A DNA stretch of 64,000 nucleotides from Eggerthella lenta DSM 2243. Lineage in GTDB: Bacteria; Actinomycetota; Coriobacteriia; Coriobacteriales; Eggerthellaceae. Below the pieces are notes generated by a model, which worked only from the letters and a program-made list of their open reading frames with translations, did no database searches and had not been told where the DNA came from. A program made the translations under genes and the position numbers. Each line of letters opens with the position of its first letter. Positions within the stretch are counted from its first letter, which is position 1. The DNA lies in assembly GCF_000024265.1 (NCBI RefSeq), contig NC_013204.1, positions 3,042,501-3,106,500 of the forward strand, in the 5' to 3' direction. Positions 3,846 to 50,423 of this stretch are shown piece after piece.

Positions 3846-5525
3846 ATGGCCCAGAAGTTGACACAGAACCAAGAGCTGTATTGCCAAGCCCGCGCGAGGG
3901 GCCTGTCGCAGCGCCGCGCCTACAGGTCCGCGTACCCGAAGTGCAATTCGACCGACGCGGCGGTAGACGCGAAGGCGTGCAACCTCGAAAAACAAGCTAA
4001 GGTTTCGGCAAGGTTGCACGAGCTGAACGAGGCCGGGGCGCGCGACGCGAAGCTCACGCGTGGGCGGCTCCTGCGCCGCCTCGACAGCCTAGCTGATACC
4101 GCATGGGCGCGAGTAGCCGAGGACGCCGAAACGGGCCGCAGAATCGACCCTGCGGCCTCGCACGCGCTCGTCGCCGCGTCCCGCGAGCTGTTGCCGTACG
4201 CCGAGGACGACGCCACGGTGCGCCCGCTGTTCGTCGCGGACTTCGGCCTGCTCATATCGCCCGACTTCTGCAAGCCGCACCGCATGATCGCGCGACGCGA
4301 GATAACCGACGTGTGGCTCGGCGGCGGGCGCGGCTCCATGAAGTCGTCCTATGCCTCGCTCGAAGTGGTCAACTACATAGAGCAGAACCCCGAGCAGCAC
4401 GCGCTCGTCTTGATGAAGTACAAGACGGCGATACGCGATGCCGCCTATGCGCAGGTCGTGTGGGCGATCAAGATGCTCGGCCTTGAAGACGAGTACGAAA
4501 TGCCCGATTCCACGCTGCGCATCAAGAAGCGCAGCACGGGCCAGTTGATCATCTTCCGTGGCTGCGACAACGCGCAGAAGATCAAATCCATCAAGGTGCC
4601 GTTCGGCCATATCGGCGTCGCCTGGTACGAGGAAGCCGACATGTTCAAGGGCATGGCGGAAATCCGCAAGGTGAACCAATCGCTCACGCGCGGCGGCAAC
4701 GACTGCATACGCCTCTACACGTACAACCCGCCCCGCTCGGTGCACTCGTGGATCAACGTCGAAATGCAGCGCCGGCGCGATGCGGGCGAACCGGTGTTCA
4801 CGTCGAACTACCTCAACGCCCCGCGCGAATGGCTCGGCGACCAGTTCCACGCAGACGCCGAGGAATTGAAGCGTATCGACCTCAAGGCATATTTGCACGA
4901 GTACATGGGCGAGGCCGTCGGCATGGGCCTCGAGGTGTTCGACCCCGAGAAGGTTGTATTCCGCGAGATAACGGACGAGGAGATCGCCGCCTTCGACAAC
5001 CTCAAGGCAGGCCAGGACTTCGGATGGTACCCGGACCCGTGGGCGTTCACGCTGTCCGAGTGGCGGCAGAACACGCGTACACTGCTCACATTCCGGGAGG
5101 ACGGCGCGAACAAGCTGCACCCCGGCGAGCAGGCGAAGCGCATACGTGCGCTGCTCACGTGGCGCGACACGCCCGACGGCGATCCCGTCTACCACCATAT
5201 CCCCGTGCGGTCGGACGATGCCGCGCCGGAGGCCATAGCGGCGCAGAGGGACGCGGGGATCAACGCACGCGAGGCCGGCAAGGGCAACATGCGCGACGCG
5301 TCGTATCGCTTCGTGCAATCGAGCACGTGGGTCATCGACCCCGTGCGGTGCCCGAAGCTCGCGGCGGAGGTTCGGGCGATGCAGTACGCGGTCAACAAGG
5401 ACGGCGAAGTGCTCAACGAGATACCCGACGGGAACGACCACTGGGTAGACGCCGTGCGCTATTCGCTCATGCCGATAGTGCGCCGCGCGAGGGGCGCATA
5501 CCGCGCGACGCCGGCCGAAGAATAG
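3846..5525 (+). CDS. Phage terminase: small-subunit-like domain fused to large subunit
   Basis: A 559-residue packaging motor. Residues ~1-60 (TQNQELYCQARARG ... RRAYRSAY) look like the helix-turn-helix DNA-recognition domain of terminase small subunits. The rest is a TerL of the Terminase_3/PBSX type: an atypical Walker A GGGRGSMKS (Lys166), Walker B AWYEEAD (Glu262/263), then an RNase H-like nuclease with Asp391 (GQDFGW) and Asp531/Asp535 (DHWVDAV). TerS and TerL are normally separate genes, and no separate TerS is visible nearby. I start at ATG 3846 (MAQKLT); ATG 3837 in the same frame is also possible. It precedes portal by 30 bases, the standard order. Confidence 0.88.
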   Translation: MAQKLTQNQELYCQARARGLSQRRAYRSAYPKCNSTDAAVDAKACNLEKQAKVSARLHELNEAGARDAKLTRGRLLRRLDSLADTAWARVAEDAETGRRIDPAASHALVAASRELLPYAEDDATVRPLFVADFGLLISPDFCKPHRMIARREITDVWLGGGRGSMKSSYASLEVVNYIEQNPEQHALVLMKYKTAIRDAAYAQVVWAIKMLGLEDEYEMPDSTLRIKKRSTGQLIIFRGCDNAQKIKSIKVPFGHIGVAWYEEADMFKGMAEIRKVNQSLTRGGNDCIRLYTYNPPRSVHSWINVEMQRRRDAGEPVFTSNYLNAPREWLGDQFHADAEELKRIDLKAYLHEYMGEAVGMGLEVFDPEKVVFREITDEEIAAFDNLKAGQDFGWYPDPWAFTLSEWRQNTRTLLTFREDGANKLHPGEQAKRIRALLTWRDTPDGDPVYHHIPVRSDDAAPEAIAAQRDAGINAREAGKGNMRDASYRFVQSSTWVIDPVRCPKLAAEVRAMQYAVNKDGEVLNEIPDGNDHWVDAVRYSLMPIVRRARGAYRATPAEE

Positions 5526-5555: not shown

Positions 5556-6959
5556 ATGGCGCTAGACGAATTCAGTATACCGAGCTGCGTAAAGGATGCC
5601 ATCAGGGAGGCGGGATACACCGCAAACACCTCGATGGAGGGCTTCGTATCGACATGGTGGCAGTGGTACACCGGCACCACGCAGTGGTACGACGAGGGCT
5701 ATACGACCGTGGAGGGCCGCAAGAAGACGCGTCGCCGCATGAGCATCAGGCCGGCACGGCGCGTATGCCGGGAATGGGCATCGCTGATCCTCAACGAGGG
5801 AACCACGATCACCTGCGAGGGGGCGAAGGCCGCTAAATGGCTCGATGGGTTCCTCGACGCCTCGAACTTCTGGGTCAACGGCCAATCGCTCGTAGAGAAG
5901 AGCATGGCGCTCGGCACCGGCGCGTGGGCGCTGTGGTTCGACGTGAGGGGCGACACGGAAACCGCCATGAAGATCCGTCGCTACGACGCGCGAATGGTGG
6001 TGCCGCTGTCGTGGGACGAAGAGGGCATCACCGAGTGCGCGTTCTGCACGAGCGTTTCGCTCAAGGGCAAGCGTGCCTATCAGTTGCAGCTCTACGTGCT
6101 GGACGAAGGCACGTACCACATCAAAACGAAGCTGTTCATGGACGGCCGCGAGGTTGACGCCGAGCGGCACGGCGTGCTCCCCGACTTCGACACGCTGATC
6201 GACCTCCCGCCATTCGGCATCATCAAGCCGGCTATCGAGAACACGTGCGTCGATCTGTCGCCCTACGGCATGAGCGTTTTCGCCGACGGTGTGGACGCGA
6301 TCAAGGCGGTCGATCTGACGTTCGACGCGCTGTGCAACGAAATCGACCTCACCGAGGCCATGGTGTTCATGTCCGACGAGATGATCGACGTGCGCGACGA
6401 CAAGGGGCGGATGGTTCCCGTCGCGCCGCGCGGGCCGAAGGGGCGGTTCTTCCGCAAGATCGCGGGGCAGACGGGCAAAGACTTCTTCGAGGTGTTCAGC
6501 CCGGATATCCGCGTCACCCCGCTCAAGGAGGCGTTCGGCGTTGCCCTCGCAGAGCTGGGCGACATTTGCGGCTTCGGTCAGAACTACTTCGTCCTCGACA
6601 AGGGTGGCGGGCTGAAAACGGCCACCGAGGTATCGAGCGACAATTCGGCGCTTATGCGCAACATCAGGAAGCACGAGAACGTCGTGCGCGCGGCCATCGA
6701 CGACGTTATGCGCGCCGCGCTGCTGTGCGCGCAGCTCCATTGCGGCGCGAAGCTCGGAAAGGTCGGGCTGGTGAGCATCGGCTTCGACGATTCGATCATC
6801 ACAGACACGCAGGCGGAGAAGAGCATGGCCCTCGCGGAGATCGCCGCGCTGGGGGTCCCCCGCCTCAAAGTCGAATACCTCATGAAGTACTACGGCATGA
6901 GCGAAGAGGACGCCGTTGCGGCCGTGCCGGCGGAGCAGATAGTCGATATCGGGTTCTAA
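5556..6959 (+). CDS. Phage portal protein
   Basis: A 467-residue portal of the SPP1 gp6-like class found in Gram-positive phages: it forms the dodecameric ring at one capsid vertex through which DNA passes. Supporting features are position directly after terminase, length, the N-terminal WWQWYTGTTQWYDE aromatic region, the central KEAFGVALAELGDICGFGQNY segment, and a long helical C-terminal part ending in the acidic YYGMSEEDAV. A good GGAAAGG site precedes ATG 5556. Its TAA overlaps the next gene's ATG (TAATG), so portal and minor capsid protein are translationally coupled. Confidence 0.9.
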   Translation: MALDEFSIPSCVKDAIREAGYTANTSMEGFVSTWWQWYTGTTQWYDEGYTTVEGRKKTRRRMSIRPARRVCREWASLILNEGTTITCEGAKAAKWLDGFLDASNFWVNGQSLVEKSMALGTGAWALWFDVRGDTETAMKIRRYDARMVVPLSWDEEGITECAFCTSVSLKGKRAYQLQLYVLDEGTYHIKTKLFMDGREVDAERHGVLPDFDTLIDLPPFGIIKPAIENTCVDLSPYGMSVFADGVDAIKAVDLTFDALCNEIDLTEAMVFMSDEMIDVRDDKGRMVPVAPRGPKGRFFRKIAGQTGKDFFEVFSPDIRVTPLKEAFGVALAELGDICGFGQNYFVLDKGGGLKTATEVSSDNSALMRNIRKHENVVRAAIDDVMRAALLCAQLHCGAKLGKVGLVSIGFDDSIITDTQAEKSMALAEIAALGVPRLKVEYLMKYYGMSEEDAVAAVPAEQIVDIGF

Positions 6960-8753: not shown

Positions 8754-9296
8754 ATGGACCCCGAGAACGAGGACAAGGCCGGCGAGGAAGCCGCAGCAGA
8801 GCCGCAGAAAGGAGCGACCGAGGCAACGGAGGCGACCGACCCGAAGCCGGCCGCAGAAGGGGCCGAGGGCGCTGCGGAGGACGGCGAAGAGCTGACCGAC
8901 GAGCACGGCCACCCGGCAATCAGCAAAGGCAAGTACGAGCGCGATATCGCGACGAAGGACGCGAAGATTGCGGAGCTTGAGAAGCAGATCGGCGAAGCCG
9001 CGAAGACCGAGGCGGGCCGCGCCGCGCTTGAGAAGAAGATCGCCGAGCTTAAGGACGACCAGGCGGAAATCCGCACCGACTACGAATTGAAGCTCGCCGG
9101 GTGCACCGACGAGAAGAAGTTCAAGGCCGCGAAGAAGCTCGTAGGCGACTACGAGGGCGACGTGGACAAGCTCAAGGCCGATTACCCCTACCTGTTCGCA
9201 GAAGACAAGAAGAAAGGCTCTACGGGTAAGAAGCCGGAGGGCGCGGGCGGAAGCGATATCGACGACAAGCTCGACCGCGCGTTCGGCCTCAAGTAG
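8754..9296 (+). CDS. Phage capsid scaffolding protein
   Basis: A 180-residue, very charged protein immediately before the major capsid gene, the usual place for a scaffold. The first ~60 residues are acidic and low in complexity (ENEDKAGEEAAAEPQKG), and the middle is a clear coiled coil (AKIAELEKQIGEAAKTEAG). The C-terminus is short, and ends KLDRAFGLK, a basic helix like those that contact the capsid protein. Scaffolds guide assembly of the empty shell and leave before packaging. A GGAAAGGA site precedes ATG 8754. Confidence 0.85.
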   Translation: MDPENEDKAGEEAAAEPQKGATEATEATDPKPAAEGAEGAAEDGEELTDEHGHPAISKGKYERDIATKDAKIAELEKQIGEAAKTEAGRAALEKKIAELKDDQAEIRTDYELKLAGCTDEKKFKAAKKLVGDYEGDVDKLKADYPYLFAEDKKKGSTGKKPEGAGGSDIDDKLDRAFGLK

Positions 9297-9322
9297 GGCG
9301 ACACTAGGAAAGGAACCACAGC

Positions 9323-10216
9323 ATGGCAAACAACCTCGGTAACGCGGTGACGAAGTTCACCACCCGCCTCGACAAGGTGCTCGAGACGGAACCGAAAACG
9401 AGCTTCCTGAACATGAATGGCGACCTCGTGGGCGAGCTTAAGGGCAACGGCGAGGTGAAGATCGCCAAGATCGCGATGGACGGCCTCGGCGACTACGACC
9501 GAGCCGTGGGCTTCCCCGTCGGAAGCGTCACGCTCGACTGGGAAACCGTGAGCCTCAACTACGAGCGCGCCCGCGAGTTCGAGATCGACGTGATGGAGGA
9601 CGAGGAGCACGAGCTTCTCGTCTCCGCGAACCTCATGGCGGAGTTCGCGCGCGCCATGGTCGCGCCGGAGGTCGATGCGATCCGCTTCGCGAAGCTCACG
9701 GAGAAGGCAGGGACCAAGAAGGCCGAGACGTTCACCGACGAGAAGGCGGCGCTCGACGCCGTGCTGCTCGCGGAAGAGGCGTTGCAGGACGCCGGCGCGC
9801 AGCTTTCCTCCTGCAAGCTGTGCCTCACGTCCCACATGAAGACGCTGCTTCGCAAGGCGCAGCCGTGGCGCATCGGCCAGAGCGAGGCCCCGAACGGCAA
9901 CTTCGACACGTTCGACGAAATGCAGCTCATCGTGGTGCCCGGTAACCGTTTCTTGACGGCCATCGACCTGCTCGACGGCAAGACGACCGGCGAAGAGGCC
10001 GGCGGATACAAGCAGGCGGCCGCAGGCGTGCCGATCAACTTCATGGCGATCCACCCGTCAGCCGCCGCAGTGCTGAACAAGCACGAGAAGCTGCGCTACT
10101 TCTCCCCCGACGTGAACCAGGACAAGGAAGCCCACAAGTGGCAGTACCGCCTGTTCCACGACGTTTTCGTTTACGAGAACAAGGCCGGCCTGATCTATTC
10201 GAGCTACAAGGCTTAA
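9323..10216 (+). CDS. Phage major capsid protein
   Basis: A 297-residue protein in the standard capsid position after the scaffold, preceded by a strong AGGAAAGGA site. Features fit the HK97-fold capsid proteins of Gram-positive siphoviruses: an N-terminal beta-hairpin/extended region, a TLDWETVSLNYERAREFEIDVMEDEEHE segment's core (EFEIDVMEDEE), an alpha-rich domain with FARAMVAPEVDAIRFAKL, and a C-terminal domain with a VPINFMAIHPSAA stretch. No protease gene is seen, consistent with a separate scaffold rather than a cleaved delta-domain. Confidence 0.9.
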   Translation: MANNLGNAVTKFTTRLDKVLETEPKTSFLNMNGDLVGELKGNGEVKIAKIAMDGLGDYDRAVGFPVGSVTLDWETVSLNYERAREFEIDVMEDEEHELLVSANLMAEFARAMVAPEVDAIRFAKLTEKAGTKKAETFTDEKAALDAVLLAEEALQDAGAQLSSCKLCLTSHMKTLLRKAQPWRIGQSEAPNGNFDTFDEMQLIVVPGNRFLTAIDLLDGKTTGEEAGGYKQAAAGVPINFMAIHPSAAAVLNKHEKLRYFSPDVNQDKEAHKWQYRLFHDVFVYENKAGLIYSSYKA

Positions 10217-19007: not shown

Positions 19008-19196
19008 ATGGAAGAAATATCAGACGGTTCGGTGCCGGCGGCGGTAGGCGCGCTAAATGGCGAGACCGAAGCGAAGCTCGCAACGATTCTCGACCTGCTC
19101 GAAACGTCGATCTTGCCGGCGCTTGAATCGGTCCCGACGAAGGCGGAGCTGGCGGAGGCGATAGGCGAAGTGAAAGGAATGATCAATGGCAATTAG
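19008..19196 (+). CDS. Small phage tail-module protein
   Basis: A 62-residue acidic protein (opens MEEISDGSVPAA) with two short helices (LATILDLLETSILPALE). It is preceded by AAGGAGG and overlaps the next gene by 11 bases. No family recognised; location between Tal and the baseplate gene suggests a minor tail component or chaperone. Confidence 0.6.
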   Translation: MEEISDGSVPAAVGALNGETEAKLATILDLLETSILPALESVPTKAELAEAIGEVKGMINGN

Positions 19197-20181
19197 CGCG
19201 CAATGGTACACGCGCGCCGTCACGCTCGACTGCGCCGACGGCCACGTAGGCGACATGTACGCGAACGAGGGGGACGCCAACGGGCGCGGCATCGACCTGT
19301 CGCTGTTCGACGGCAAGGAACCGGCGAACACGACCGGCATGTCCGTGTACCTCGCATGGGGCCACGAGGCTGGCGGCGAGGGTTTGACGCCGTTCTCCGC
19401 CGTGGACGCGGCGCACGGAAGATGGCGCGTGCTCTACCCCACCGCCATGCAGCGGAGCGGAACCGTGCTGGCGCGAATCATGGTTTACCTGAACGGCAAC
19501 CGCGCCGCGATATCGGGCAGCAAGAACTTCCGGATCTTCGTGGACGTCGATCCGGTGGACGGGAGCGCGGCGCTTTCCGATAACGACTTCTCGGTATTCC
19601 AACAGGCGGTCATCGACCTCAACACGGCGAAGGCGAACGCCGACAAGTCAACGAAGGCGGCGAACGACGCCGCGAAGAAGGCGACCGACGCGGCTGCGGG
19701 CGCGAACGCGGCGGAGAAGAGCGCCGCCAAGGCGACCACTGACGCGAACACGGCGGCTAAGAGCGCGGACGAGCAGGCCGACAGGGCATCGAAGGCGGCG
19801 AACGACGCCGACACGGCGACCGCGAAGGCGAAGGAGGCCACGGGCAACGCCGAGAAGGCGACCACGGACGCCGCAGCGGCCACGAAGTCGGCGACGAGCG
19901 CGGCATCGCAGGCGCAGGGCGCGGCGAGCAACGCGAACGCGGCGGCGAGCAACGCCCTGCAGATCGCGAACAGCATCGCGAGCAACGGAGCGGGCGACGG
20001 CGAGGTGGCCGCGTTGAAAGAGAGCGTGGACAAGCTCGGGAACCTCGCGGCGGAGCTGTCGGGCGGCTACATCGTCATGGACGGCACGCTCTACGCCCCT
20101 TCGGCGAAGGCGACCGCGAGCGGCGGCACCGCGGCCATGAAGAGCGCATCGGTTAGCGGCGAAATGGCATCACTTACCTAG
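19186..20181 (+). CDS. BppU-like baseplate protein with alanine-rich coiled coil
   Basis: A 331-residue protein. The N-terminal ~130 residues match the BppU N-terminal type (TLDCADGHVGDMYANEGDANG, later SGSKNFRIFVDVDPVDG), which attaches receptor-binding proteins to the Dit ring. Residues ~145-270 are a striking A/K/D repeat (units like NAAEKSAAKATTDANTAAKS), a long trimeric coiled coil that extends the fibre. The last ~50 residues form a small glycine-rich tip. Translation is coupled to the preceding gene. It lies 14 bases upstream of the DGR target, so the two proteins probably form one adhesin assembly. Confidence 0.78.
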   Translation: MAISAQWYTRAVTLDCADGHVGDMYANEGDANGRGIDLSLFDGKEPANTTGMSVYLAWGHEAGGEGLTPFSAVDAAHGRWRVLYPTAMQRSGTVLARIMVYLNGNRAAISGSKNFRIFVDVDPVDGSAALSDNDFSVFQQAVIDLNTAKANADKSTKAANDAAKKATDAAAGANAAEKSAAKATTDANTAAKSADEQADRASKAANDADTATAKAKEATGNAEKATTDAAAATKSATSAASQAQGAASNANAAASNALQIANSIASNGAGDGEVAALKESVDKLGNLAAELSGGYIVMDGTLYAPSAKATASGGTAAMKSASVSGEMASLT

Positions 20182-20194
20182 AAAGGAACGGAAC

Positions 20195-21085
20195 ATGACG
20201 GATATCAGCAAACTGGGCGTGGGGGGCACCACGTACACCATCAAGGACGAGAGCGCCCGCACCAGCAGCCAGAACGCCGTGAACGCGTCGGAGTACGCGC
20301 GGCAGATCGACACGGACACCTACGCGGGCCAAAGCCTCGCCGCGCTGTTCGCGGGCGAGATCGCGAATTACGCGAACGTCTGGGCGTGGCTGCGCGCCCG
20401 CGTGCGCGCGGGGAACTTCGCGGGAATGCGGACGAAAGACTACATCGACCTGACGCTCACGAACGGCAACAACGTGCGGTATCGCATCGGCGATTTCGAC
20501 CCGTACCTGTATTGCGGCGATGCGTCGAAGGGCCATCACGTCGTCATGGTGCCGAGCGCGCCGGTCGCCGTGACGGGAGCGGATGCGGTGAACGGCTCCT
20601 ACATCGTATGGAACGAGACGGCGACCAACCAGGGGACGGCGGAAAACGCGCACCCCTACCTGGTGAGCAACCTGCACCGATGGGAAACAGAGGTGTACTA
20701 CCCCATGTTGCCGCAGATCGTCCGCGACTGCATCCTCAACCAGCGCGTTCTGCTCGAAACGCGCTACAGCGCGTCGGGCGCGCTCACGGCCTCCAACAAC
20801 TGGGCGTGGGCCGACCTCGGGCCGGTGTGGTCGCCTTCCGAAATGGAGGTGTACGGCTGCTGCGTCTGGGGGACGCCTGGGTATTCGGTCGGCTTCGACT
20901 GCCAATTTGACATTTTCAAGAAGACGAAGGACCGCATCCAAGGTTCGCGGATCTCTTGGTGGCTTCGCTCTGTGTCCGGGCTTTCCTCGTCCTACGTGTG
21001 CTACGTCGACAGTTACGGGATTGCCTACTACTATACCCCGGCGTACGCCTGGGTCCGGCCCCTGCCCTGCTTCCTCGTAGGCTGA
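20195..21085 (+). CDS. DGR-diversified receptor-binding protein (C-type-lectin-like C-terminus)
   Basis: A 296-residue tail-tip protein. The first ~60 residues are a helical attachment region (SKLGVGGTTYTIKDESARTS). The rest resembles the DUF6273/C-type-lectin fold used by retroelement target proteins, ending in SWWLRSVSG ... WVRPLPCFLVG; W-x-R-P close to the C-terminus is typical of these targets. The last 43 codons are the variable repeat. Residues that differ from the template-encoded version are Ser254, Tyr267, Asp272, Tyr274, Ile276, Tyr278, Tyr280, Tyr284, Ala285 and Cys293; six of the ten are now tyrosine or cysteine, aromatic-rich as expected for a binding face. A good AGAAAGGAACGG site precedes ATG 20195. 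Confidence 0.93.
   Translation: MTDISKLGVGGTTYTIKDESARTSSQNAVNASEYARQIDTDTYAGQSLAALFAGEIANYANVWAWLRARVRAGNFAGMRTKDYIDLTLTNGNNVRYRIGDFDPYLYCGDASKGHHVVMVPSAPVAVTGADAVNGSYIVWNETATNQGTAENAHPYLVSNLHRWETEVYYPMLPQIVRDCILNQRVLLETRYSASGALTASNNWAWADLGPVWSPSEMEVYGCCVWGTPGYSVGFDCQFDIFKKTKDRIQGSRISWWLRSVSGLSSSYVCYVDSYGIAYYYTPAYAWVRPLPCFLVG
20945..21074 (+). repeat. DGR variable repeat (VR)
   Basis: This 130-base segment matches the template repeat at 21675-21804 with a constant 730-base offset. There are 11 mismatches (20954, 20955, 20993, 21008, 21014, 21021, 21026, 21032, 21044, 21047, 21070), and every one is an A in the template. The stretch 20956-20992, where the template has no A, is identical. The G/C-rich end (GGGTCCGGCCCCTGCCCTG, to 21069) is the likely initiation-of-mutagenic-homing site. 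Confidence 0.96.
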
Positions 21086-21148
21086 AAGCCGGTGCTGTAT
21101 ACTTCTCTGCGCCCGCCTTGCGCGGGCGCACTTGCCCGCGAAGCGGGC
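21080..21148 (+). terminator. Hairpins downstream of the variable repeat
   Basis: Three stem-loops follow the target gene. GGCT-GAA-AGCC (21080-21090) begins five bases after the end of VR homology, in the position of the cruciform that aids retrohoming in the Bordetella phage DGR. TGCGCCCGC / GCGGGCGCA (21108-21116 / 21122-21130) is a perfect 9-pair stem. GCCCGC-GAA-GCGGGC (21134-21148) is followed by a T-rich run (21153-21168), so the last pair probably also acts as a terminator before avd. Confidence 0.7.
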
Positions 21149-21181
21149 CGGTTCAAATTTTTATTTTTCGGAGGGTAGAGC

Positions 21182-21652
21182 ATGGGCGGGGTTTACGAGC
21201 GGACCCGCAAGGTGTCCGAATTCGAGTTCTACAACACGGCGATCAGGATACGCGTGGAGGTCAACAGACTCATGGCGTCGCCCGCTGTCGTGCCGAAGGC
21301 TTACCGCCTGCTGAACGCCGTCCCCACGGTCGAGACGGCGCGTGCAATCGTCTACAACATCAACCGCGCCGATCAGTTCTACCCGAACAGCGCGGCCAAC
21401 GTGCTCGAGCGCAGAAAGTACCTGTCGCTCGCGATAGCGGATTGCGAGCAGCTTTGCCAGGACATGCAATGCCTTATCGACATTGGGCTACCCGTCAACG
21501 TCGGAAAGTTCGAGGCCGTCGTCTCGATGATCGAGCAGGAGATAGCATTGCTCAAGGGCGCGCGCAAGAACGTGCGCATCGTCGGAAAGCGCAGCGCCGA
21601 AGAAATGCTAGCCGATGCCGAGGCGGAGGTAGAGAGGATTCGTGCGCTATAA
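21182..21652 (+). CDS. avd: DGR accessory variability determinant (Avd)
   Basis: A 156-residue all-helical protein between variable and template repeats, the standard place for Avd. Avd is a pentameric four-helix-bundle that binds the reverse transcriptase and the template RNA and is needed for cDNA synthesis. The sequence shows the amphipathic helices and basic surface of that family (RTRKVSEFEFYNTAIRIRVE, then LSLAIADCEQLCQDMQ, ending KNVRIVGKRSAEEMLADAEA). The N-terminus has the YNTAIRIRVEVNRLM helix seen in bacterial Avd proteins. Start ATG 21182 has GGAGGG upstream. It ends 22 bases before the template repeat. Confidence 0.86.
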   Translation: MGGVYERTRKVSEFEFYNTAIRIRVEVNRLMASPAVVPKAYRLLNAVPTVETARAIVYNINRADQFYPNSAANVLERRKYLSLAIADCEQLCQDMQCLIDIGLPVNVGKFEAVVSMIEQEIALLKGARKNVRIVGKRSAEEMLADAEAEVERIRAL

Positions 21653-21674
21653 TGGTCGCGCGTTATGCCTTGCA

Positions 21675-21804
21675 TCGCGGATCAATTGGTGGCTTCGCTC
21701 TGTGTCCGGGCTTTCCTCGTCCAACGTGTGCTACGTCAACAGTAACGGGAATGCCAACTACAATACCCCGGCGAACACCTGGGTCCGGCCCCTGCCCTGA
21801 TTCC
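21675..21804 (+). repeat. DGR template repeat (TR) and template RNA region
   Basis: The donor copy for the variable repeat, intergenic between avd (ends 21652) and the reverse transcriptase (starts 22020). In the frame used by the target it encodes eight Asn codons (AAC/AAT) and one ACC at the sites that vary, the usual design because AAY can mutate to 15 amino acids without making a stop. The copy itself ends in TGA. The 215 bases that follow (21805-22019) hold no gene and should be the downstream part of the template RNA that primes cDNA synthesis. Confidence 0.95.
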
Positions 21805-22019
21805 CAGACGGCCAGACCGAGTAGGCGAAAGCCGAAAGCAGCGCCATTGAGGAAGGAAGGCATGACCGTCGGCCGCGAGGCCGTAAATACGCACCCCGCG
21901 AGCGATGGCGGACGCTTCTTGCATGGCCGTGGCCTTAGGCGCTCGACCCGGTTTCATGCCATCGTCTCACGCGGCTGCTGCACGAACGCCATTGAAAAGG
22001 CCGTGCGGGGTGCCCTCCT

Positions 22020-23168
22020 ATGAATTCGGATGAGCGCAGGGCGGCGCGCAGGGCGCGCAGGGAGGCAGAGCGGGCGCGCAGGAAGGCCGAGCGCAACGCG
22101 GGATGCGACCTTGAGGCCGTCGCCGACTTGAACGCGCTTTACAAGGCGGCGAAGCAGGCCGCGCGCGGCGTCGCATGGAAGGCGAGCGTGCAGAGGTACC
22201 AGGCCGACGTGCTGCGCAACGTCATGAAGGCACGCCGCGACTTGTTGGAAGGCCGCGACGTTTGCCGTGGGTTCATCCGCTTCGATCTATGGGAGCGCGG
22301 AAAGCTGCGCCACATAAGCGCCGTACGCTTCTCCGAGCGCGTCATACAGAAGAGCCTAACGCAGAACGCGCTCGTCCCGGCCATAGCGCCGACGCTTACC
22401 TATGACAACTCGGCGAACCTCAAGGGCAAGGGAACCGATTTCGCCATAGCCAGGATGAAGAAGCAGCTCGCGCGCTTCTACAGAAAGCACGGGGCCGATG
22501 GCTACATCCTGCTCGTTGACTTCTCCGACTACTTCGCGCGGATATCGCACGGCCCAGCGAAGGCCATAGTGGCCGGCGCGCTCGAAGACAGGCGGCTCGT
22601 CGCGCTTGAGCACCGCTTCATAGACGCGCAGGGCGATATCGGGCTGGGACTTGGAAGCGAACCGAACCAGATACTCGCCGTGGCGTTCCCATCCTACATC
22701 GACCACTTCGCGGCGGAAATGTGCGGGCTTGAGGCCACGGGGCGCTACATGGACGATAGCTATTACATCCACGAGAGCAAGGCGTACCTCGAAGTGGTGC
22801 TCATGCTCATAGAGCAGAAGTGCGACCAATGCGGGATATCGATCAACCGCAAGAAGACGCGCATAGTGAAACTGTCGCGCGGCTTCACGTTCCTCAAGAA
22901 GAAAATCTCGTTCGGAGAGAACGGGCGCATCGTCGTAAGGCCGTCGCGCGAATCGATCACGCGCGAAAGGCGGAAGCTGAAAAAGCAACGCAAGCTCGTC
23001 GATCTCGGGATGATGACGCCCGAGCAGGTAGAGAGGTCCTACCAATCGTGGAGGGGCGGCATGAAGAAGCTGGACGCGCACCGCACGGTGCTGTCCATGG
23101 ATGCGCTGTACAAGGATTTATTCTCGAACCCCGAAAATGCCTCGCGGGGGGGGGTGTCATTGAAATAG
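22020..23168 (+). CDS. DGR reverse transcriptase
   Basis: A 382-residue retroelement reverse transcriptase that copies the template RNA with errors at adenines. Visible motifs: catalytic Asp167 in ILLVDFSDYF (motif A), GLGLGSEPNQ at 208-217 (the RT4 region, where DGR enzymes replace the QG of other RTs), and the YMDD active site at 243-246 (GRYMDDSYYI). The C-terminal thumb is basic (KKKISFGENGRIVVRP). A very basic R/A-rich N-terminus (~1-30) precedes the fingers. The gene ends with a 9-G run (23146-23154) only four codons before the stop. It is last in the DGR cassette; the start follows the template RNA directly. Confidence 0.96.
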   Translation: MNSDERRAARRARREAERARRKAERNAGCDLEAVADLNALYKAAKQAARGVAWKASVQRYQADVLRNVMKARRDLLEGRDVCRGFIRFDLWERGKLRHISAVRFSERVIQKSLTQNALVPAIAPTLTYDNSANLKGKGTDFAIARMKKQLARFYRKHGADGYILLVDFSDYFARISHGPAKAIVAGALEDRRLVALEHRFIDAQGDIGLGLGSEPNQILAVAFPSYIDHFAAEMCGLEATGRYMDDSYYIHESKAYLEVVLMLIEQKCDQCGISINRKKTRIVKLSRGFTFLKKKISFGENGRIVVRPSRESITRERRKLKKQRKLVDLGMMTPEQVERSYQSWRGGMKKLDAHRTVLSMDALYKDLFSNPENASRGGVSLK

Positions 23169-25820: not shown

Positions 25821-25830
25821 ATTGGTTCCG

Positions 25831-25906
25831 TGGTGGAGATGATGGGATTCGAACCCACGACCCCCACGTTGCGAACGTGATGCTCTCCCAACTGAGCTAC
25901 ATCCCC
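25831..25906 (-). tRNA. tRNA-Ala (anticodon CGC)
   Basis: A 76-base leftward tRNA with encoded CCA. On the minus strand it starts GGGGATG, has an AGCTCAGTTGGGAGAGC D arm, the anticodon loop TTCGCAA (anticodon CGC) and a T arm with GGTTCGAATCC. The acceptor stem contains the G3-U70 wobble pair that defines alanine tRNAs. Its 3' end faces the prophage, the orientation used by many tRNA-integrating phages, so 25831-25906 is the probable right attachment region. Confidence 0.95.
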
Positions 25907-42327: not shown

Positions 42328-42472
42328 AACTGGGCATCCTCGTACGGCATCCCAAGGTTTTCATTGGTTCATTCTGCCAAGTTTTCTTATCACAATGTCA
42401 AGTATACTTATCACGAAGAGGAAATGCAAGGCAAGCGTTGCAGATCCGGAACCGCGCATGGCACTCTTTTGC

Positions 42473-42478
42473 TACCAT
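42473..42478 (+). promoter_or_regulatory. -10 element of the alpha/beta hydrolase (leaderless)
   Basis: TGCTACCAT (hexamer TACCAT at 42473-42478) is seven bases from ATG 42486, so the transcript should begin at the start codon. Confidence 0.45.
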
Positions 42479-42485
42479 GCTCGTC

Positions 42486-43319
42486 ATGGAAACGAACGAA
42501 CCCACACCCACGACGGAAGCGGCCGAAAGCGGCACGCCCGTCGCCGCGCGCCGCAAGCCGCGCAAGCTCGTCGTCGCGCTGACGGCCCTCGCCATCCTGC
42601 TGTGCGTGCTGGCAGCCGCGTTCTTCGCGTACGCGAGCGACTCGTACCACGACCTCGACGCGAACCATCGCAACCTCGTGTCGACCGAGACGCTGCCCGT
42701 TCAGCAGGGAGACAACTACCTTGCGTTCGGCGACCCGAACGCAGCCGTCGGCCTCGTGTTCTACCCCGGCGCGAAGGTGGAATACAGCGCGTACGCGCCG
42801 CTCATGCGCGATCTGGCCGAGCGCGGCTACCTGGCCGTAGTGGTCCAGATGCCGTTCAACTTCGCGTTCTTCGACATCAACGCAGCCGACCGCGTGCGCG
42901 CGGACTTCCCCGACGTGGGCACCTGGTGGGTGGGCGGCCACTCGCTGGGCGGCTCGATGGCGGCGCAGTACGCGGTCGACCATGCCGGCGACGGCACGCT
43001 CGACGGCCTCGTGCTGTTGGGATCCTACTCCGCCAGCGACCTGTCGAGCACGAACCTGGGCGCCATCTCCCTGTACGGCTCGAACGACCAGATGCTCAAC
43101 CGCGCCAAGCTCGAGGACAACGCCGACCTGCTGCCCAAGGGAGCCGAAACCGTGGAGATCGAAGGCGGCAACCATGCCGGCTTCGGCGCCTACGGCCCGC
43201 AAAGCGGCGATGGCGAAGCCAGCATCACCCCCGCGGAACAGCAGAGCCAAACCGCCGACGCCATCGACCGCTACATCAGGGCCCGCTACGCCGAGCCGTC
43301 CCTGGCAGCCGCAGCATAG
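42486..43319 (+). CDS. Alpha/beta hydrolase with N-terminal membrane anchor
   Basis: A 277-residue hydrolase. A basic R/K-rich head and a hydrophobic segment (~28-47, VVALTALAILLCVLAAAFF) form an anchor. The catalytic fold is the carboxymethylenebutenolidase-like alpha/beta type: GLVFYPGAKVEYSAYAPLMR (oxyanion), GGHSLGGSMAAQ with catalytic Ser, an acidic residue in ISLYGSNDQML and His in IEGGNHAGFG. I start at ATG 42486; ATG 42477 three codons upstream has no better site. Substrate not deducible. Confidence 0.82.
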   Translation: METNEPTPTTEAAESGTPVAARRKPRKLVVALTALAILLCVLAAAFFAYASDSYHDLDANHRNLVSTETLPVQQGDNYLAFGDPNAAVGLVFYPGAKVEYSAYAPLMRDLAERGYLAVVVQMPFNFAFFDINAADRVRADFPDVGTWWVGGHSLGGSMAAQYAVDHAGDGTLDGLVLLGSYSASDLSSTNLGAISLYGSNDQMLNRAKLEDNADLLPKGAETVEIEGGNHAGFGAYGPQSGDGEASITPAEQQSQTADAIDRYIRARYAEPSLAAAA

Positions 43320-43346
43320 CGCGAACCACGCTCAGCCGAGCCGCCT

Positions 43347-44804
43347 CTAGCGCGTTTTCCGCTGCGGGCGCGGCAGAAACGCCATGCCCACGACGAAGCC
43401 CACGACGATGACGGCCGCCTGCACTTCGAAGCTTAAAGCGAAACCGCCGACGTCGATGCCTAGCTCGTTGGAAGATGCGAGCGCCATAACCGTGATAAGC
43501 GCCGACGACGAGAGCGCACCGAAGATCTGGCGAAACGACGTGATGATGGCCGTGCCTTGCGCGATGTCTTCAAGAGACAGCGCCGCGCAAGCGTGAGCGG
43601 TCATCGGCATCATGAGGCATGCGACCCCCACCGTGCGCACGCCGTACAACACGGTTATCGCCCACTCGGGCGTACCCGCGTCGCACGCCGCGAACGCCAG
43701 CGTGCCCGCAGCCAGCACCGCGCATCCCACCGCAACGAGCGGCCTTGGACCGTAACGGTCGAGCAGGCGTCCCGTCACCGGGTTCAAGAACCCTAGCAGC
43801 ACCGCGCCCGGCAGGATAGTCAGCCCCGACACCGTGGCGCTGCCGCCCTGCACGTCCTGTACGAACAACGGCACCATGATGGAACCGACCATGAACGCCA
43901 TCTGGGACATCATCACCAGCACAGTGGCTATCGCGAACGTGCGGTTGCGAAAGCACGACAGTTTGAGCAGCGACTGCTCGATGCGCGCCTGGCGCCTCGC
44001 GAACACGAAGAGCGCAAGCGCGCCGCCTGCGAGCGCCGCCAAAGACACAGGATCGAACGCAGCGTCCGACTCCATAACCGTGGTCCCCAGCATGATGCCG
44101 CAGAAGCCAAGCGTGTACAAAAGCCCCGAAGGCACGTCGAACCGCTCGCGCGACCCTTCGCGCTTCACCACGTCGGACAGCACGAATAACGACAGCACCA
44201 CAACCACCGCCGACACCGCGCCCAAGATGACGAACACCGAGCGCCAACCCCAGAAGTCGATGAGGAAGCCGGATACGGTGGGCCCGATGGCCGGCGCGAA
44301 GCCGATGATGAGGCCCACCAGACCCATCGCACGGCCGTACTCGCTTTTGGGGTACACTGACAGCGCCACCACCTGGATAAGCGGCAGCGCGATGCCCGCG
44401 CCGCCGGCTTGCAGCAGGCGCGATGCCAACAGCAGCGGATAATTCGGTGCGACGAGCGCGGCCGCGCAACCTGCGACGAAGCACACCATGGCTGCGATGA
44501 ACAGCTTCTTCGAATCAACGCGATGCACCAGATAGGCGGTCATAGCCGAGATGAGGCCAAGCGTGAAGATGTAGGACGTGGTGAGAAGCTGGCCGAGCGA
44601 GGCGCTCACGGAGTACTCGTGCATGATGGTGGGAAGCGCGGCTATCATCATGCTCTGCGAGATGCACGCGGCGGTGGTGCCCGACATCATGACCGCAAGC
44701 ACGATGGTGCGCTGTCTCTTCGGCAAGCCGTCGGATACCCCTTGCGCGGTATCACCCGCGCTGCCATAGTTCCGTTCTCGCTCTATCGCCTGTGCGCTTT
44801 CCAT
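43347..44804 (-). CDS. MFS efflux transporter (DHA2/EmrB type)
   Basis: A 485-residue transporter with 14 hydrophobic segments, as in DHA2 drug:H+ antiporters. Motifs: TTSYIFTLGLISAMTAYLVHRVDSK (motif A-type loop; part) and RLLQAGGAGIALPLIQVVAL in TM5 region, and GFLIDFWGWRSVF. It probably exports drugs or small organic compounds. I start at ATG 44804, which is six bases after a minus-strand TATCAT -10 (44816-44811), another leaderless start; a farther upstream ATG is unlikely. Confidence 0.87.
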   Translation of the reverse strand: MESAQAIERERNYGSAGDTAQGVSDGLPKRQRTIVLAVMMSGTTAACISQSMMIAALPTIMHEYSVSASLGQLLTTSYIFTLGLISAMTAYLVHRVDSKKLFIAAMVCFVAGCAAALVAPNYPLLLASRLLQAGGAGIALPLIQVVALSVYPKSEYGRAMGLVGLIIGFAPAIGPTVSGFLIDFWGWRSVFVILGAVSAVVVVLSLFVLSDVVKREGSRERFDVPSGLLYTLGFCGIMLGTTVMESDAAFDPVSLAALAGGALALFVFARRQARIEQSLLKLSCFRNRTFAIATVLVMMSQMAFMVGSIMVPLFVQDVQGGSATVSGLTILPGAVLLGFLNPVTGRLLDRYGPRPLVAVGCAVLAAGTLAFAACDAGTPEWAITVLYGVRTVGVACLMMPMTAHACAALSLEDIAQGTAIITSFRQIFGALSSSALITVMALASSNELGIDVGGFALSFEVQAAVIVVGFVVGMAFLPRPQRKTR

Positions 44805-48521: not shown

Positions 48522-49334
48522 ATGCAGCAGCAACTCACGAAACAGACCCCCGAGGGCTTCCTGCTGGTCGGACGCATCGACGCGCCGGAGCAGCCGAAGG
48601 CGGCAGTCGTCATCGTCCACGGGCTGTGCGAGCACTTCGGCCGCTACGACTACGTGACGCAGCGGCTGCTGGAAGCCGGGTACGCCGTCGTGCGCTTCGA
48701 TCATCGCGGGCACGGGCGCTCCATGGGCAAGAAGGTGTGGTACGACGACCGCACGCAGATCGTATCCGATACCGACCTGTTCGTCGAAGAAGCCCGCGCG
48801 CAGTTCCCCGACCTGCCGGTGTTCATGATCGGACACTCTATGGGCGGCTTCGGCGCCGCCAGCTACGGCACGGCCCATCCCGGCAAGCTGGACGGCTACG
48901 TGCTGTCGGGCGCTTGGACGCGCGACCACGCGAGCCTGGCCTCGGGCGCCGTCGAGCAGGGGCTCGACCCCGAGACGTACATCCCCAACGAGCTGGGCGA
49001 CGGCGTGTGCTCCGACCCCGCCGTGGGAGAGGCCTACCTGGCCGACCCCTTCGTCATCAAGGAGTTCTCGGTGGCGCTGCTGCGCGCCGTGCACGACGGC
49101 CACCTCTGGCTGCGCGCGCAGGCCGCCGATTTCGCCGACCCGGTGCTTCTGCTGCACGGCGGAGACGACGGCCTGGTCAGCCCGCAGGACAGCATCGACA
49201 TGTTCCGCGAAGCGTCGTCGGCTGACAAGTCGCTGCGCATTTACGCGGGCCTCTACCACGAGATATTCAACGAGTTCAAAAAGGACCGCGTCATCCGCGA
49301 TGCCATCGAATGGCTCGACGACCACGTGAGGTAA
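48522..49334 (+). CDS. Alpha/beta hydrolase, monoacylglycerol lipase-like
   Basis: A 270-residue serine hydrolase of the Hydrolase_4/monoglyceride lipase type. VIVHGLCEHFGRYDYVTQRL is the family's HG..EH..RY oxyanion motif, MIGHSMGGFGAASYG holds the catalytic Ser, LLHGGDDGLVSPQDS the Asp, and GLYHEIFNE the His. Unlike the hydrolase at 42486 it has no signal or anchor, so it is cytosolic. AGAGAAGGGAACGC precedes ATG 48522. A strong stem-loop follows the gene. Confidence 0.9.
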   Translation: MQQQLTKQTPEGFLLVGRIDAPEQPKAAVVIVHGLCEHFGRYDYVTQRLLEAGYAVVRFDHRGHGRSMGKKVWYDDRTQIVSDTDLFVEEARAQFPDLPVFMIGHSMGGFGAASYGTAHPGKLDGYVLSGAWTRDHASLASGAVEQGLDPETYIPNELGDGVCSDPAVGEAYLADPFVIKEFSVALLRAVHDGHLWLRAQAADFADPVLLLHGGDDGLVSPQDSIDMFREASSADKSLRIYAGLYHEIFNEFKKDRVIRDAIEWLDDHVR

Positions 49335-49376
49335 GCTGCACTGGCCAAGGCCGAACATCGCCACGCCAACGGGGAA

Positions 49377-49414
49377 AAGCGCCTGCGTCATAAGAAGGAT
49401 CGACGCAGGCGCTT
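49377..49414. terminator. Terminator-like hairpin after the hydrolase
   Basis: AAGCGCCTGCGTC (49377-49389) and GACGCAGGCGCTT (49402-49414) form a perfect 13-pair stem with a 12-base loop. There is no T run on the plus strand; on the minus strand four Ts follow. Confidence 0.6.
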
Positions 49415-49515
49415 GCACGAGGGCAAAGCCCCCTCGCGGCCGGACAGCCGTCTGCGTAGCCGAGCCCGGCATGCGCCGCATCCTGCCGCAACAGGAAAAA
49501 ACGCATAAAAATGCA

Positions 49516-49530
49516 CCCCCCCCCCCCCCC
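49516..49530 (+). repeat. 15-C homopolymer upstream of the chemosensory operon
   Basis: Fifteen consecutive C residues, about 45 bases upstream of the predicted -10 (TATTCT 49562-49567) of the cheR operon. Tracts of this length tend to vary by slippage and could tune promoter strength. Confidence 0.8.
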
Positions 49531-49576
49531 GCTCATCCCCGGATCGAGCCCCTATCAATGGTATTCTGTAGCCATC

Positions 49577-49621
49577 ATGAACATCCATCGACGAAGCGGT
49601 GCGCGTGGAACATATGACTGA
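49577..49621 (+). CDS. 14-residue leader ORF overlapping cheR
   Basis: ATG 49577 lies 10 bases after a TATTCT -10, near the expected transcript start, and encodes 14 codons ([14 protein letters not shown]) ending at TGA 49619-49621. The stop overlaps the cheR start region (ATG 49614), so translation of this short frame would deliver ribosomes to cheR, which has only a weak site of its own. I cannot show it is translated. Confidence 0.4.
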   Translation: MNIHRRSGARGTYD

Positions 49622-50423
49622 CAGCGAATTCGAGCAGGTACGCTCGTTTCTTGCCCAGACGTACGGTCTGGACATGGATTCGAAGCGCACCCTGCTAGAA
49701 TGCCGCCTCGCGCGCGAGCGCGATCGTTTGCAGCTGCCGTCGTTTTCGGCGTACTTCGACCTCGTGGAGTCAGGGCGAAACCAGCAGGAGCGAAACCGGT
49801 TCGTCAACCTCGTCACCACCCATTACACCTACTTCCTGCGCGAAAGCGCGCAGTTCAAGTTCCTCTTCGCCACGGCTTTCCCGGAATTGCTGGCCAAGCG
49901 GCCGAACCGCCCGTGGAACATACTGTGCGCCGGCTGCTCCACGGGAGAAGAATGCTACAGCGTCTCGATGCTGGTCGAGGACTACGCGCGAACCCACCCG
50001 ATCCCCTCCGTTCGCATCACCGGCATCGACCTGTCGCAACCTGCGATCGAAGAGGCGCGTACGGCCGCCTATCCCGAATCGCGCATCAACAGGGTGCCCC
50101 GTCGCTGGCGCAATGCGTACTTCGTTCGGAACGGTCAGCTGTACACCGTTGCCGAGCGCATCCGCTCGCGCGTCTTTCTGGCGCAGGGCAACCTCTGCGA
50201 CGACGAAGTCCTGCGCAGGACGTACGACCTCATCATGTGCCGAAACGTCATCATCTACCTCAAAGCCGAAGTTCGCAACCGGGTGATCGCGACATTGCAC
50301 CGCCACCTCGCCCCATCGAGCTACCTCATGCTGGGGCACGCCGAGATCATCCGCGAACGTACGCTGTTCGAATACCAGGGGAACTCCGTTTATCGAAGAC
50401 AAGCGAAAGCGACCAACGTATGA
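49614..50423 (+). CDS. CheR-type protein-glutamate methyltransferase
   Basis: A 269-residue CheR-family enzyme that methylates glutamates of chemoreceptors using SAM. The N-terminal helical domain is followed by the SAM fold with [33 protein letters not shown] and [10 protein letters not shown]. It is first in an overlapping five-gene group with an MCP, GGDEF, CheA-like and CheW genes (ATGA overlaps throughout). Compare WspC in the Wsp system. No CheB demethylase is present in the window. ATG 49614 is preferred; a GTG at 49599 would add five residues. Confidence 0.87.

Follow-up and report, generated by a model that had tools for sequence, protein, structure and literature searches.

The diversity-generating retroelement of the Eggerthella lenta prophage DSM2243phi4 and its RT-2 spacer RNA

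The DNA analysed here (the window, 64,000 nt in full) corresponds to positions 3,042,501–3,106,500 of the 3,632,260-bp Eggerthella lenta chromosome NC_013204 and carries a diversity-generating retroelement (DGR) at window positions 20195–23168 (chromosome 3,062,695–3,065,668). The DGR lies inside DSM2243phi4, a clade 4 prophage of E. lenta located by Buttimer et al. (2022, PMC8778435) at 3,031,719–3,068,586 of NC_013204, and the cassette is already known because the same element was described by these authors, with mtd, a putative avd, a template repeat (TR) and a variable repeat (VR) of 130 bp and ert named as the parts found in these prophages. The sections of that paper covered here contain no mention of a spacer RNA, a hairpin or a mark at the initiation of mutagenic homing (IMH) sequence. 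The preliminary description of this DNA had proposed a complete DGR in a single 3-kb block with the order target-VR-avd-TR-reverse transcriptase (RT), of the type known from Bordetella phage BPP-1, in a coriobacterial prophage; all the parts it named were found intact at these positions, and the prophage is DSM2243phi4. The RT-2 spacer RNA, the hairpin behind the VR and the mark distinguishing the IMH from its counterpart in the TR (IMH*) were absent from it. The features of the element are as follows.

20195–21085, plus strand: target gene of the DGR, named mtd by Buttimer et al. and likely coding for a receptor-binding protein; DUF6273 match (E 7.8e-8); carries the VR
20945–21074, plus strand: VR with the IMH at its 3′ end and the fixed mark C at 21070 (repeat search)
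21108–21130, plus strand: candidate hairpin or cruciform behind the VR, 9-bp stem, loop CTTGC (stem search)
21182–21652, plus strand: avd-like accessory gene, open reading frame (ORF) intact, product 28% identical to the annotated Avd of Roseburia phage Shimadzu
21675–21804, plus strand: TR with the fixed mark A at 21800 and IMH* at 21801–21804 (UUCC) (repeat search)
21807–22033, plus strand: RT-2 RNA (Rfam RF03077), the DGR spacer RNA; scores 126.9 bits (gathering score 40) over model positions 1–222 of 222
21851–21854, plus strand: GGAA pairing with IMH*, A21854 being a candidate priming adenine (25-sequence alignment)
22020–23168, plus strand: DGR RT gene (ert); RVT_1 E 1.6e-10, PHROG 1423 E 3.5e-63, YMDD at residues 243–246

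The TR and VR are direct repeats of 130 nt located 730 bp apart and sharing 92% identity. They differ at 11 of 130 positions, and all 11 mismatches fall on the 23 adenines present in the second copy (hypergeometric p 4.7e-10), so the second copy is the template and the first one, situated at the 3′ end of the target ORF, the VR. One of the mismatches (21070/21800) is a fixed boundary mark and no mutation, which leaves ten. A whole-genome search with the TR gave no match beyond the TR itself and this one VR. Read in the frame of the target up to the mark, the TR contains eight AAY codons and six other adenine-bearing codons, none of its codons can be converted to a stop through its adenines, and the adenines before the mark allow about 10^13 possible proteins; about 10^6 variants from 10 sites are counted in PMC8778435.

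The RT carries the YMDD motif and Asp167 exactly as had been claimed, its ORF is intact, it can be aligned with the RT of BPP-1, and the only RVT_1 match in the genome is the one within this DGR. Among solved structures the closest chain is PDB 8ub7_A (E 2e-10), which we take to be the BPP-1 enzyme. The Avd-like protein gave no Pfam, PHROG or NCBIfam match at the thresholds used and, up to E 1, only weak matches to families of unknown function; a search of solved-structure sequences with its alignment gave nothing useful. Its model is helical, with a predicted local distance difference test (pLDDT) score of 73, and the nearest folds are of the S23 family, none passing E 0.001, with the Bordetella Avd (4dwl) at rank 45. 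For the Avd-type assignment the sequence match is good and the fold support weak.

The RT-2 match (E 4.1e-30) starts 3 nt past the TR, and its end overlaps the beginning of the RT gene. RT-2 was also detected in 10 out of 13 relatives in one set and in five out of eight in another, with L160, L021, L040, L041 and L044 showing neither RT-2 nor Phage_DGR (RF03022). A search of 396 Coriobacteriia genomes, performed with filters that lose weak matches, resulted in 22 RT-2 RNAs from 19 genomes, every one of them adjoining an RT match when the two tables were compared by eye. As 21 of the 22 begin 1–14 nt after an adenine-biased TR, RT-2 is a DGR spacer in this class; the remaining one follows a repeat without the bias. 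No RT-2 match was obtained in 21 of the 40 RT-bearing genomes, and the more distant DGRs therefore use other or unrecognised spacers. The structure of the spacer together with the TR end, in an alignment of 25 sequences, comprises 47 pairs, 30 of which show double changes, with 93.6% of the cells able to pair; none of 500 shuffles reached any of the five covariation measures, bearing in mind that the structure came from this very alignment and that common descent by itself can place related sequences above shuffles. The Rfam entry is described simply as 'RT-2 RNA', with no mention of DGRs in that line. RT-2 reportedly goes back to Weinberg's work of 2017. That work lay outside the coverage of our literature search, which found no paper linking RT-2 to DGRs and met RF03077 by name in one paper only, as an entry in a table of revised families.

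Several loci with unusual arrangements were noticed among the relatives. In L032 (G057:C4, ~8831–9540) an RT and RT-2 accompany a TR/VR pair without adenine bias, and both copies look altered where relatives have adenines, which gives the impression of a rewritten template. A Collinsella contig (L005; G278:C6) has two DGR RTs at 42396–43415 (plus strand) and 49025–50044 (minus strand), facing each other about 6 kb apart and each provided with its own RT-2, and the G304 genome likewise has two DGR RTs. In L036 (G116:C13, 11850–12980) the middle of the RT (residues ~186–265, including YMDD) lies on the opposite strand, which is either an inversion or an assembly error, as the genome is split into 220 contigs and has 9% contamination; the edges of the segment showed no inverted repeats of at least 8 bp. 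In the Faecalibacterium phage FP_Brigit (L160), where no RT-2 was found, the TR is at 4630 and the VR at 6695, behind the RT and within a gene annotated as coding for a Hoc-like head decoration protein.

The Rfam model begins just past the TR and so cannot show the first helix of the structure, in which the UUCC closing the TR (21801–21804), together with three further bases, is paired to a strand including GGAA at 21851–21854. This helix alone contains 23 double-change cells compared to 8.1 in shuffles, a value reached by none of 500, while two of the five measures were reached by 13 and 45 of the 500 shuffles, and its three variable pairs fail to form in 5, 7 and 6 of the 25 sequences. The register of the helix could differ, since a second GGAA directly follows the first. 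The mark could be located in 57 TR clusters, and in 46 of these the exact complement of the cluster's own four bases occurs 25–75 nt downstream, with 20.4 expected from shuffles. The spacer strand of BPP-1 that ends at A56 lies opposite the TR bases from U118 on, with seven of the first eight positions pairing, one of them as G-U. A56 is the BPP-1 primer and G117 the first template base, points for which the literature search gave no passage. A spacer adenine was reported to prime within IMH* in BPP-1 (PMC12875486), whose DGR has been rebuilt in E. coli. The analogy suggests A21854 (spacer position 50) as a candidate cDNA primer, with one difference calling for caution, namely that in the window the helix is separated from the preceding G by the mark adenine, which would itself be the first template base. 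The literature search found no covarying helix joining IMH* to GGAA in RT-2 in print.

The 3′ ends of the TR and VR share a GC-rich stretch followed by a single A/C difference before TTCC, so that IMH and IMH* are not identical. In all 21 TR/VR pairs of the first set the last adenine difference is A in the TR and C in the VR, within a GA/GC context and with T as the next base; of the 273 adenine changes elsewhere in these pairs, 57 are to C. A wider set, made up of 111 pairs out of 132 loci with many duplicates, was grouped into 63 TR clusters, of which 49 have the A/C mark, three are mixed between A/C and none, seven have C on both sides and four have none, which puts the A/C difference in 52 of the 63; in one of the seven C/C clusters, L037, the mark is found one codon upstream. 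Coding alone was considered as the cause of the mark and rejected, as five Collinsella relatives keep it even though it is synonymous there (GGA/GGC). The direction of copying in BPP-1 is set by a five-base difference between IMH and IMH* (PMC3240598), and the role of this difference is one that the A/C mark may fit. A few differing IMH/IMH* positions were reported for Treponema (PMC4891356) and identical IMH and IMH* for a crAss-like phage (PMC7290462). In the parts of PMC6642488 and PMC3521204 consulted, the IMH is mentioned without such a mark, and PMC8144416 and PMC6199706 gave no match to the terms searched for it.

A stem of at least 8 bp is present within 110 nt past the VR in 18 of the 21 DGRs as compared to 31 of 1000 stretches taken at random from the window. 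The published phage consensus is a GC-rich stem of 7–10 bp located 4–34 bp from the VR with a 4-nt GRNA loop (PMC3240598), and the window hairpin, having a 9-bp stem 33 nt behind the VR, is within the published pattern in these respects. A second hairpin behind the VR, at 21134–21148, contains GCGAAGC, and the same stem with a GAA loop is found in L005, L006, L008 and L009. GCGAAGC is an unusually stable DNA mini-hairpin.

Of 138 genomes from the family, 14 have RT relatives, as do 40 of the 396 sampled from the class, the genome of E. lenta itself being counted in both; RT relatives were also found in 48 phage records and in 154 viral-contig stretches, 80 of which were kept, a narrower RT alignment serving as the query. 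RT, RT-2 RNA and TR recur together in relatives, which show the layout seen in the window. A script looking for repeats whose differences lie mostly at the adenines of one copy found a TR/VR pair in 22 of the 24 first sources and 68 of the 80 viral contigs. With the boundary mark set aside, 273 of 612 TR adenines are changed in 21 pairs compared to 11 of 2038 other bases, totals that are not independent evidence because the script selects for adenine bias. Comparisons of one VR with another are better evidence, and the variation they show among relatives is adenine-specific. Across the 10 pairs formed by five Collinsella VRs, differences occupy 100 of 207 shared TR-adenine sites and 9 of 921 others; 431 of 4500 positions differ in the 450 nt upstream of the VR of the same five DGRs. 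Near-identical viral contigs differ at 12 of 33 (99.6% identity), 15 of 32 (99.5%) and 25 of 31 (98.1%) TR-adenine sites with one other VR difference each, and 40 pairs with TRs at least 95% alike differ at 215 of 1160 TR-adenine sites and 9 of 3980 others. The A-to-N variation against a constant template that the preliminary description had proposed to look for is thus seen in relatives, both in the Collinsella VRs and in the near-identical phage pairs. No VR difference at all was present in 25 of the listed pairs, 18 of which look like one genome or record present in duplicate, the others coming from five groups of contigs with identical VRs.

Two other known DGRs serve for comparison. Bordetella phage BPP-1 (NC_005357) shares with the window the order target-VR-avd-TR-spacer-RT, adenine-specific TR/VR differences, a homologous RT and a spacer strand facing the TR end. 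It differs in that its RT is only 22% identical to that of the window, its spacer belongs to RF03022 and not to RT-2, its IMH and IMH* differ at five published positions and not at one, and the hairpin loop of the window is CTTGC and not the published GRNA. The Roseburia phage Shimadzu (LR596903) has a 53% identical RT, an RT-2 spacer, the same A/C mark, an annotated Avd and a target beside tail genes, but it comes from another host group, its tail module has baseplate J and P2-like genes, and the Avd proteins have only the low identity given above.

Taken together, the spacer and the two TR ends allow a joint reading in which RT-2 is the spacer of a large DGR lineage distinct from that of BPP-1, the GGAA/IMH* helix sets A21854 as the primer, and the A/C difference acts as a directional signal keeping the TR constant as the VR changes. 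This is offered tentatively, as a possibility we consider somewhat more likely to fail in one of its parts than to hold in all, given that the mark is missing in 7 of the 63 clusters and RT-2 was found in only 19 of the 40 RT-bearing genomes.

For the element itself we are highly confident that it is a complete, working BPP-1-type DGR of prophage DSM2243phi4. The anatomy, the adenine bias, the conserved RNA structure and the adenine-specific variation among relatives are all observed here; the priming position, the role of the A/C mark and the effect on host recognition are what we infer. By such a mechanism, a transcript of the TR and the RT-2 spacer would be bound by the RT and Avd, cDNA synthesis would start at the TR's 3′ end from a spacer adenine acting as primer, the RT would misread template adenines, and new residues would appear in the C-terminal domain of a protein from the baseplate region, at the eight AAY codons and at a few more. 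Several points weigh against a DGR that works in this way. The published VR changes come without an RT knockout in the sections of PMC8778435 covered, and their ten sites need not be the ten adenine sites found here. No VR variation was seen within this prophage, for which the sole near-identical record has the same VR, and five groups of contigs from different metagenomes have identical VRs, a result against constant change. The window hairpin has a 5-nt loop, CTTGC, which is not the GRNA consensus and is found in 10 of the 21 DGRs, and the model of the target (six sequences) has a pLDDT of 47, which is too poor to show a C-type lectin or Ig fold, with no meaningful match in the fold search.

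The target ORF (891 bases, 296 aa) is intact, and DUF6273 was found in all six aligned target homologues; a search of solved-structure sequences with the target alignment gave nothing useful. Immediately upstream of the target come a protein of the prophage tail endopeptidase type (Prophage_tail E 4.1e-38) and the following neighbour, which lies outside the DGR.

19186–20181, plus strand: BppU-like baseplate protein (BppU_N E 4.7e-5)

The BppU-like neighbour of the preliminary description does match BppU_N, only marginally (23.6 bits, cut-off 23.1). Receptor-binding proteins usually sit behind such tail and baseplate genes. The DGR could also be working on another virion protein or a cell-surface protein instead of a receptor-binding one, given that the target shows only a domain of unknown function and no fold match and that the published study, in the sections covered, could not prove the role either. 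We regard this as unlikely, though clearly the strongest of the alternatives, in view of the position of the target directly behind the Prophage_tail-type and BppU-like proteins and of the relatives, in which the target is likewise kept beside tail genes. The target is most likely the receptor-binding protein, and the DGR may in this way affect host recognition and host range.

It would be very improbable for the element to be a relic with all the DGR parts present but a frozen VR. A second E. lenta copy of the prophage was sought, and the sole near-identical record, L003/L080 (IMGVR_UViG_644736358), is identical to the prophage across all its 9693 bases and has the same VR, as a relic would have it, but it most likely represents the same strain; the three genomes listed from the same genus are without such an RT. 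All the ORFs are intact, the RT-2 RNA scores far above its threshold, and VR substitutions at 10 sites were reported for chemostat isolates of DSM2243phi4, from which activity in the lysogen was inferred by the authors (PMC8778435, section 3.5), and which speak against a relic outright if they lie at TR adenines. An RT belonging to another element (group II intron, retron or defence RT) with the repeats unrelated to it is already refuted: the best of its four NCBIfam matches is indeed a group II intron RT model (50 bits vs 300), but all four are far below the cut-offs, and the adenine bias (p 5e-10), the closest solved chain 8ub7_A and the co-occurrence of RT, RT-2 RNA and TR in relatives all stand against it.

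As regards the working DGR's carrier, circularisation through attP was reported for DSM2243phi4, and in DNase-treated supernatant the prophage coverage was 26-fold above that of the host (PMC8778435). One further feature of the window concerns the right end of the prophage.

25826–25838, plus strand: probable right attachment core, a 13-mer with exactly two genome copies, one per prophage end, at the 3′ end of a tRNA-Ala gene

The two copies of this 13-bp sequence are at chromosome positions 3,031,716 and 3,068,326. The right one is overlapped by the 3′ end of the tRNA-Ala gene (window 25831–25906, minus strand), and the left one falls within the last codons of a serine-recombinase gene (Resolvase E 9.3e-24) that abuts the left prophage end (L046 9211–10683, chromosome 3,031,711–3,033,183). 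In PMC8778435, integrases are described for seven out of 10 clades, all of the tyrosine type, with no serine type reported in the sections covered; its Table 2 gives tRNA-Ala for DSM2243phi4, and its text an attP amplicon without insight into attB. The printed end 3,068,586 looks like a slip, since a prophage of the published 36,618 bp would end on the right at ~3,068,336.

As a DGR, the cassette is an ordinary one that behaves as expected; what makes it interesting is that a dormant phage has one of its genes mutated inside a common gut bacterium. RT-2, being the spacer of this DGR lineage, allows such DGRs to be found by an RNA search, and the pairing between the TR end and the spacer makes priming and one-way copying testable outside BPP-1.

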